This document shows, piece after piece, positions 23,809 to 54,626 of a stretch of DNA of 64,000 bases. Origin of the DNA: Thiomonas intermedia. GTDB taxonomy: Bacteria > Pseudomonadota > Gammaproteobacteria > Burkholderiales > Burkholderiaceae_C. The notes below the pieces were generated by a model. The model had not been told where the DNA came from, ran no database searches, and was given only the letters and a program-made list of their open reading frames with translations. The DNA is taken from positions 1-64,000 of the forward strand of contig DZDA01000002.1 in assembly GCA_022730375.1 (NCBI GenBank). Reading direction: 5' to 3'. A program made the translations under genes and the position numbers. The first letter of the stretch is position 1. Every line of letters begins with the position of its first letter.

Positions 23809-24974
23809 GTGCAGCCCGTCAGAGTTCCCGCTTTGCGGCGCCACGCTTCGTTCGGCTGACGCGTCTGGCTTTGCCTCTATTGTTGGTCGCGGGCTTGGGC
23901 GCCTGCGCTTCGGGCTCCAAGCCGCCTGAGCCGATGCCACTGACCCCGGTGGTCAACATTCTGACCGTCAAGCAAGCCTGGACGCAGCAGATTGGCAAGG
24001 TGCCCGCGTGGTTCCAGACCGCAACGCTGCCGGACGCCGTCGTCGTGGCCTCGTCCGACGGGCAGGTCATGCGCCTGAACAGCGCCACAGGGCAGGTGAC
24101 CTGGTCGGCCAAGGTGACTGCGGGCATCAGCGCAGGGACGGGGAGCGACGGCGCCTTTACCGCCGTGGTCGACAAGAACAACGGCCTCGTGTCGATCGGC
24201 CCCAAGGGCCAGTTGCTGTGGCGCTATCAGTTACCGGCCACGGTGCTCACACCGCCTTCCGTGTTCGATGGTCGCATCATCGTTCAGGCGGCCGATCAGC
24301 GCGTGTTTGCCTTTGACGCGGCGACAGGCAAGCGTTTGTGGCAAGCCGACAGTCGCGCCGCTTCCCTGCTGGTGCAACAAGCCGGCGGCATCGTGGAGCG
24401 CAACGGCGTGGTGATGATCGGCACCGGCCTCGGTCGCATCGATGCCTACGATCTGGACAACGGTTTGCCGCGCTGGCAGGCCACCCTCGCACGCGCCCGG
24501 GGCGTGACCGAGGTCGAGCGCGTGGTGGGCATTACTGGCCAACCGACGCTGCTCGGCTCAGTGCTGTGCGCGCGCGCCTACCAATCCGCCGTGGGCTGCG
24601 TGGACGCCGATACCGGCCGCATGCTCTGGACGCGCAGCGCCAACGGCTACACCGCGCTGAGCATGAACGATCAGGAAGTCGTGGGAACGCAGGCGAACGG
24701 CGACGTGCAGGCGTATTCGGCCACCGATGGCGTGCCGAGCTGGACCAATGCACAGATGAAATGGCGCAAGCTGAGCGCGCCGCTATTGGTCGGTCGCACG
24801 GTGGCGGTGGGTGACTATCAGGGCTATATCAGCTTTCTCTCCGCCAAGGACGGCAGCATCGTCGGCCGCGCGGCGACCGACGGCAGCGCCATCCAGTCGG
24901 CGCCCGTAGTGGTGGGCAAGACCCTGGTGGCGGTCACGGCCAAGGGCGGGGTCTACGCCTTCGTGCCAGACTGA
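23805..24974 (+). CDS. bamB: Outer membrane assembly lipoprotein BamB
   Basis: Lipobox LGAC, PQQ-like beta-propeller repeats, gene order hisS-yfgM-bamB-der. Confidence 0.93.
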   Translation: MSAARQSSRFAAPRFVRLTRLALPLLLVAGLGACASGSKPPEPMPLTPVVNILTVKQAWTQQIGKVPAWFQTATLPDAVVVASSDGQVMRLNSATGQVTWSAKVTAGISAGTGSDGAFTAVVDKNNGLVSIGPKGQLLWRYQLPATVLTPPSVFDGRIIVQAADQRVFAFDAATGKRLWQADSRAASLLVQQAGGIVERNGVVMIGTGLGRIDAYDLDNGLPRWQATLARARGVTEVERVVGITGQPTLLGSVLCARAYQSAVGCVDADTGRMLWTRSANGYTALSMNDQEVVGTQANGDVQAYSATDGVPSWTNAQMKWRKLSAPLLVGRTVAVGDYQGYISFLSAKDGSIVGRAATDGSAIQSAPVVVGKTLVAVTAKGGVYAFVPD

Positions 24975-25134
24975 GAGGGTGTGAACAAATCCGCCATGTC
25001 CGCTCCTCGCGCCCAAACACCCCCGTTCGGCGTTGCAAATGCGCGCCGTGCCGACGGGCACGGCTGTGCTTTGCGCCTTGATCGGGGGCGTTTGGACGCG
25101 CTGCTCGGCCACGCCGAATTCATTCACACCCTCT
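24974..25134. repeat. MITE-like long imperfect palindrome with 12-bp perfect terminal inverted repeats
   Basis: AGAGGGTGTGAA (24974-24985) / TTCACACCCTCT (25123-25134); inner complementary blocks CGCGCCCAAACACCCCCG / CGGGGGCGTTTGGACGCG and GCCGTGCC / GGCACGGC. Confidence 0.85.
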
Positions 25135-25137
25135 GAC

Positions 25138-26535
25138 ATGACCCCTATCGTTTCACTGGTTGGCCGACCGAACGTCGGCAAGTCCACCCTGTTCAATCGC
25201 CTGACGCGTTCGCGCGATGCCATCGTGGCCGACATGCCTGGCCTCACCCGCGACCGTCATTACGGCATGCTGCGCATGGCGGATCGGCCGGTCATCGTGG
25301 TCGATACCGGCGGTTTCGAGCCTGTGGTCGATACCGGCATCGTGCACCAGATGGCGCGGCAGACGCGCCAGGCCATTGCTGAGTCCGACCTGGTGGTGTT
25401 TCTGGTTGATTTGCGTACCGGGCTCAGTCCGCAAGACCTGCATATCGCCGCCGAGTTGCGCAAGACCGGCAAGCCCATACTTTTGGCAGTGAACAAGGCC
25501 GAAGGTCGGCATGGGCACCCGGCGCTGGCCGAATTCCACGAACTCGGCCTAGGCGAGCCCTTTTCCATCAGCGCAGCCCACGGCGACTCGGTGCCGGATC
25601 TGCTGGAGCGCATTCTGGAGGCGCTGCCTTCCGAGCCCTCCGAGGTGATGCCCGAGACCGAGGCGGCAAGCGACGTCGCCGCCGAGACCGCGCCCGACCC
25701 TGGCGCCGAGACCACGAAGCCGCGCGAGCACAGCCTGCGTCTGGCCATTGCCGGGCGTCCCAATGTGGGCAAATCCACACTGGTCAATGCGCTGGTCGGT
25801 GAAGAACGGGTGATTGCCTTTGACATGCCCGGCACGACCCGCGACGCGATCGAGGTGCCGTTCGAGCGCGACGGTCGCAAGTTCATCCTGATCGACACCG
25901 CCGGACTGCGGCGCAAAGGCAAGGTGTTCGAGGCGGTGGAAAAATTTTCGGTCATCAAGACGCTGCAAGCCATCGAGCAGGCCAACGTCGTCGTGCTGCT
26001 GCTCGACGCGACGGAAGGCGTTTCAGACCAGGATGCGCATATCGCCAGTTTTGCCGTTGAGGCCGGCAGGGCGCTCGTGCTGGCGGCCAACAAATGGGAC
26101 GCAGTGGACACCTACGGGCGCGAACGCCTGATGGTCGCCATCCGTCAGCGTTTGCCCTTCGTCAGCTTTGCGAAATTTCACAGCATTTCCGCCCGCACAG
26201 GCTCAGGTCTGAACGGGCTGATGAAGTCGGTTGTCGCCGCACACGCTGCGGCCTATCGCAAATTGCCCACCCCCAAACTCACGCGCGCCATCATTGAAGC
26301 GGTGGCGCAGCAACAGCCGCCGCGTTCCGGCCCGGTGCGGCCCAAGTTGCGATACGCGCACCAGGGCGGTACCAACCCGCCGATCATCATCATTCATGGC
26401 AGCGCGCTCGACCGGGTGCCCGCCACCTACACGCGCTATCTGGAAGGCCAATTGCGTGCAAAATTCGACTTGACGGGCACCCCTTTGCGGGTGGAATACC
26501 GCAGCAGCACCAACCCCTACGCGCGCGACGACTGA
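25138..26535 (+). CDS. der: Ribosome-associated GTPase Der (EngA)
   Basis: Two G domains: [15 protein letters not shown] and [17 protein letters not shown]-like C-terminus. Confidence 0.96.
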
Positions 26536-54307: not shown

Positions 54308-54472
54308 GGTCACCTCGATAGAAAGATTTGATGGGGATTTTGACACAAGTTGCCACTAGGGCGCTGAACGCGTCTGGTGGATACGGAATCAGCGCCGGGA
54401 CAAAAAGCCTTTGGGTTGCCGATGAACAAGCGCGCATCAGACGCAGCGGGCAGGCAAGGGTGTTGGGGTGAC

Positions 54473-54562
54473 GAGCCGTTCCCCCGGCACTCACGGTAAA
54501 CGGCTGTGGCTGCTCCGTTCCCGACCTGACCAAGTTCACCGCGCCGCGATGCGAGGCGGCCC
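54473..54562 (-). ncRNA. ffs: Signal recognition particle RNA (4.5S, small bacterial type)
   Basis: Minus strand GGTCAGGTCGGGAACGGAGCAGCCACAGCCGTTTACCGTGAGTGCCGGGGG; conserved SRP RNA apical domain. Ends approximate. Confidence 0.93.
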
Positions 54563-54626
54563 GTCAATCGACATTGTATGGGCAATCGCATGGCCATCAC
54601 TGCAGCGTGCGTGGCGGAGCGCCGAG

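Follow-up and report, generated by a model that had tools for sequence, protein, structure and literature searches.

A palindromic MITE of Thiomonas and its relatives lies in one orientation, mostly at stop codons, and shares a bulged core hairpin with other MITE families

The imperfect palindrome that occupies the spacer between bamB and der in Thiomonas intermedia is a MITE, and the family to which it belongs (family A) is not ordinary either in its landing rule or in the core that it shares with other families. Our account as a whole, which we consider probable, is that family A is moved in trans, most likely by a transposase of the IS5 superfamily, into a CTGAG-like target with duplication of the TGA, in one orientation and mostly on stop codons, and that its core is kept. 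The initial annotation of the window (the whole stretch of 64,000 nucleotides that was analyzed) had already proposed a non-autonomous MITE. That reading is supported by copy number, empty sites and the absence of an encoded transposase, and was right in its main points, although the stop-codon rule, the preference for one orientation and the core hairpin common to other families escaped it.

The mobile unit is a palindrome of 159 bp (24975-25133, plus strand), with 16 copies in its own genome and common ends in the full alignment. It is flanked on both sides by TGA: the left TGA (24972-24974, plus strand) is at once the bamB stop codon, closing a 341-codon frame, and the left copy of the target duplication, while the right TGA (25134-25136, plus strand) is the right copy. 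The host genes are bamB upstream (23949-24974, plus strand; NCBIfam TIGR03300 above cut-off) and der (engA) downstream (25138-26535, plus strand; NCBIfam TIGR03594 above cut-off). The bamB TGA and the der ATG at 25138 stand as first placed, but the mobile unit is better drawn inside the two TGAs than from the last base of the stop codon. The terminal inverted repeats are GAGGGTGTGAA on the left (24975-24985, plus strand) and, on the right, a minus-strand repeat that reads TTCACACCCTC on the plus strand (25123-25133). They are perfect over 11 bp, and reach the 12 bp originally claimed only when one duplicated base is included. Inward, the arms (24974-25028 versus 25080-25134) are 76% complementary over 55 nt, and they enclose a 52-nt bulged hairpin (25029-25080, minus strand), the core common to MITE families with different ends, which is supported by covariation and by a cmsearch hit (80.2 bits, for a copy that is itself among the model's own sequences). 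The element folds far beyond chance on both strands: its RNA folding energy is -91.3 kcal/mol on the plus strand, compared to -61.1 +/- 4.1 for dinucleotide shuffles, and -113.6 kcal/mol on the minus strand, compared to -65.1 +/- 4.3, which bears out the palindrome of about 160 bp seen in the spacer at the outset.

The element is short, non-coding and bounded by terminal inverted repeats, and it is present in many copies. The T. intermedia genome (a draft MAG of 2.53 Mb in 139 contigs) holds 16 full-length copies with 82-100% identity and the same ends throughout, as well as several fragments, and over 90 more copies are found in relatives. Among sampled genomes, the element occurs in 22 of 61 genomes and 13 of 49 genera, every one in the host's own family, and was found in none of the sample's 24 other families. 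When 85,462 named genomes, among which the close relatives of ours are Thiomonas, were scanned by pattern, Ottowia, Variovorax, Ramlibacter, Xenophilus, Pseudorhodoferax and Oryzisolibacter were added.

Comparison with sister strains revealed both empty and independently filled sites. Several Thiomonas genomes have the bamB-der junction without an element (GACTGATCGG...), and the bamB stop TGA is already present in the empty sites of G005 and G009. In G006 and G007 the junction carries the same subfamily as in T. intermedia (G000), while in G008 it carries a copy of the GAGCTTG subfamily, with flanks GACTGA / element / TGATCGG; relative to the empty site, this copy displays a clean 3-bp TGA duplication and probably inserted independently at this stop codon. 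The initial annotation had held that a single-copy palindrome conserved at this junction across distant genera would point to an inherited hairpin; we found instead a multi-copy element and a junction that is empty in sister strains. We also compared ten further insertions with close relatives that do not have them. A TGA pre-existed at the exact place in 6/10 empty sites (L003, L089, L098, L140, L100, L119), L141 was not alignable, and the remaining sites read TGG (L124), TAG (L103) and TCA (L007), the last two being a poor fit to plain TGA duplication. Several filled flanks display one-base changes. Target duplication with an empty counterpart is therefore seen, as TGA, at bamB-der (in G008) and at six other loci, with later one-base changes.

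Among 107 copies, TGA is the left triplet in 88 and the right triplet in 95, and a further 6 have TAA on the left. Since TCA is never the left triplet in these 107 copies, the orientation relative to the non-palindromic target is fixed, and insertion is one-way with respect to the asymmetric ends of the element. In 74/107 copies a gene (open frame of at least 70 codons) has its in-frame stop at the left triplet. With a run-length test, 81 of the 94 copies with a stop triplet occupy a stop-codon position, compared to 106 of 288 background CTGAG sites taken from the same loci (odds ratio 10.7, p about 1e-17), and stop-codon placement is still 72/95 after sites shared between genomes are merged. 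Of the TGA-type sites that lie outside coding sequence in the window, which are those open to insertion, only 16-26% are stop codons. The excess among copies can be due partly to survival, in that a duplicated TGA leaves the gene intact; TGA is the commonest stop here and the duplication leaves the upstream gene its stop, which would be why most surviving copies lie on stops. The bias may thus reflect active choice of stop codons, survival of harmless insertions, or both. Survival alone does not explain the orientation, since nearly all of the ~30 copies away from stop codons have the fixed orientation as well. One reversed family A copy (L101, G006 C2:893964-894140) lies in frame near the 3' end of a 629-codon YcaO-like gene, the frame of which stays open.

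Remnants suggest how copies may decay. In the genomes listed, solo left ends are common beside stop codons, often fused to the ATG of the next gene, and solo right ends are rare. At L250, L253, L256, L257, L266 and L330, solo left ends of ~23-27 bp span from stop codon to next ATG, so that the whole intergenic spacer is an element remnant. Forms of ~50 bp with internal deletions, which keep both ends and have no core, are found at L258, L269 and G011 C14:4707-4755. The asymmetry between left and right solo ends may arise because deletions are free to enter the spacer but not the gene; the right part would be lost into the spacer while the left end remains by the stop codon.

The arms themselves point to the minus strand as the folded one. 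The minus strand is the more stable one in 77 of 78 copies. When the consensus arms of the subfamilies are paired, 62 mismatches are A.C on the plus strand (and thus wobble on the minus strand), compared to 13 that are G.T on the plus strand; these related subfamilies are not independent, but the pattern recurs in many separate columns. Arm mismatches in family B are biased the same way, 5 to 1. Thus, the minus-strand G.U bias noticed at bamB-der is general, and the folded minus strand, as RNA or as single-stranded DNA, appears to be the one under constraint.

This genome also has a second repeat family that matches the middle of the element; it is 158 bp long, with TGCAGTGTTTCA ends and a duplicated CTAG target, mostly away from stop codons. 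Two of its copies, L031 (G000 C70:13476-13637) and L032 (G000 C52:47219-47380), are identical over 162 bp, which suggests that this second family moved recently. Further families with other arms, such as L503 (TAA + GAGCCTGTTCAA ends), contain the 52-nt core as well, and palindromes of ~100 bp (GTTG...CAAC) around it, at L517, L518, L520, L523, L524 and L528 in several Burkholderiales families, are probably another repeat family. In 26 distinct cores, 93.4% of cells are paired in the minus-strand structure and 10/18 pairs have changed on both sides, with a covariation score of 0.338, compared to 0.126 for shuffled cores and no more than 0.076 when partners are slid; the sequence of bulges and inner loops is conserved. 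Covariation alone does not pick the strand, since the counts for the plus strand are almost identical. With a covariance model of the core, we found matches in 28 of 150 Burkholderiales genomes, from 22 families of the order, and outside the order in few genomes and with weak scores.

We considered that the core might be a structured RNA gene or an RNA regulatory motif that is carried by MITEs and active as a minus-strand transcript. The covariation and conserved bulges, the wobble bias towards the minus strand and the presence of the core in about 22 of the order's families sampled are all as this idea would have it, but neither the element nor the core has an Rfam match above the gathering score, and in most loci read the core sits within longer palindromes. 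We thus regard an RNA function as unlikely, although this idea bears on nothing but the core and does not conflict with the MITE reading. (Rfam does recognize a small SRP RNA and a tRNA in the window, at 54467-54565 and 4-76, both on the minus strand; both are ordinary.) For the MITE reading, the central hairpin would be a conserved module, folded on the minus strand as single-stranded DNA in transposition or as RNA, that is kept while families exchange ends and targets.

Since the element encodes no transposase, as the initial annotation had stated, it must move in trans. IS5-superfamily elements are marked by TNA duplication at CTNAG and by GAG-CTGT-like ends, and family A displays this signature: its GA(A/G)G(C/G)TGT ends and TNA duplication resemble those of an IS5-type IS, L220 (TAA + GAAGCTGTTTTAAA, with a PF13340 transposase), from a genome of another family of the order, and the ends and duplication of L503 are similar as well. 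We looked for IS5-type partners through PF13340 and PF01609 and rejected the candidates, finding no full-length IS with family A ends in 60 loci, a subset of all matches; likewise, the PF01797 loci examined, also a subset, do not have these ends, and 80 loci from named genomes yielded no full-length element. PF01609 has no match at all in four genomes with copies (G000, G013, G018, G034). We also rejected the idea that two inverted copies, 1.6 kb apart in G006, enclose an autonomous element, because the intervening gene reads as YcaO-like. As no full-length IS with the same ends was found, we assign the element to no particular IS. Furthermore, a symmetric DDE transposase by itself would not yield a fixed orientation. 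Judging from ends and duplication, we conclude that family A would be mobilized most likely by an IS5-superfamily transposase, one that is absent from or unrecognized in the genomes studied.

A Y1/HUH single-stranded DNA transposon (IS200/IS605, REPIN-RAYT) would also account for the orientation, since the folded minus strand would be excised and inserted 3' of a tetranucleotide, and one TGA would belong to the element. Fixed orientation, a hairpin constrained on one strand only, and flanks in which the element-adjacent base is kept and the outer base varies in some copies (such as CGA/TGG) are consistent with this mechanism. The transposase does not track the element, however: the complete genomes G005, G006 and G008 have copies and no Y1 transposase, G012 has a Y1 transposase and no element, Y1 loci have neither elements nor the core, and the 3-bp duplication is real at several empty sites. 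We therefore rejected a Y1/RAYT partner and consider such a mover improbable. Many sampled genomes do have a single RAYT-like Y1 transposase gene of about 210-300 aa (L277, L279, L281-L283, L285-L292), with no adjacent repeat copy.

We judge it very improbable that the palindrome is protein-coding, extending or encoding peptides as Rickettsia palindromic elements do. Element lengths are mostly multiples of three (159, 171, 168, 180), the plus frame is open in 99/108 copies, and the copy in the YcaO-like gene is in frame, but differences are spread equally over codon positions (143/136/144), the nonsynonymous/synonymous ratio is 1.09 of expectation, one-base indels recur among copies, and the left TGA stops the upstream frame. 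Thus, the frame shows no coding selection and looks inherited. Least credible of all is that the bamB-der operon inherited the palindrome vertically as a regulatory hairpin or terminator, an origin refuted by the empty sites: G000, G006 and G007 share the bamB-der copy but the junction is empty in other Thiomonas or filled by another subfamily in G008, copies lie at dozens of other genes, and no T run follows the hairpin; a secondary effect on der expression is possible.

More tentatively, and less probably than not, family A may belong to a Burkholderiales superfamily of MITEs in which one bulged hairpin, acting as a folded single strand of DNA or RNA, would be required for the elements to move or persist, with the ends being exchanged and setting the target; family A would then actively target stop codons one-way, with harmless insertions. 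The near-harmless landing, with the stop codon duplicated, the gene intact and the direction fixed, makes target choice by the transposase and survival directly testable against each other. The covarying core that these families have in common suggests that MITEs can swap ends around one structured module. A classification based only on the ends would overlook this, and the covariance model of the core can be used to search for a repeat superfamily across an order.

We found no description of the element, its sequence strings or the core in the literature searched, coverage of which was incomplete; the Polaromonas JS666 genome paper, as cited in a review, reportedly describes MITEs in a member of the same family as our host. 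Correia/NEMIS, ERIC/IRU and RUP elements are, like family A, MITEs of 100-170 bp with long imperfect palindromes, and they seem to differ from it in ends and target. Family A resembles MITEs of the IS5 superfamily (IS427/IS1031-type ends, CTNAG targets, TNA duplication) in its GA(A/G)G(C/G)TGT ends and 3-bp TNA duplication, but the middle base of its target is G, in one orientation only, its copies lie mostly at stop codons, and the partner transposase that we looked for was not found. Rickettsia palindromic elements are likewise palindromic with a mostly open frame, whereas family A displays no coding selection and lies after the stop codon, not inside genes. REP/REPIN sequences with their RAYTs are also palindromic, extragenic and present in many copies, and the termini of GTAG REPs often provide the TAG stop codon of flanking ORFs (PMC3733652); in contrast, family A is 159 bp long, has a 3-bp target duplication and is not associated with a Y1 transposase. 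Finally, the ISAjo2/IS1202 family provides a precedent for insertion in one orientation at a short site (PMC10132070), although those elements are autonomous 1.5-kb ISs with targets near dif.
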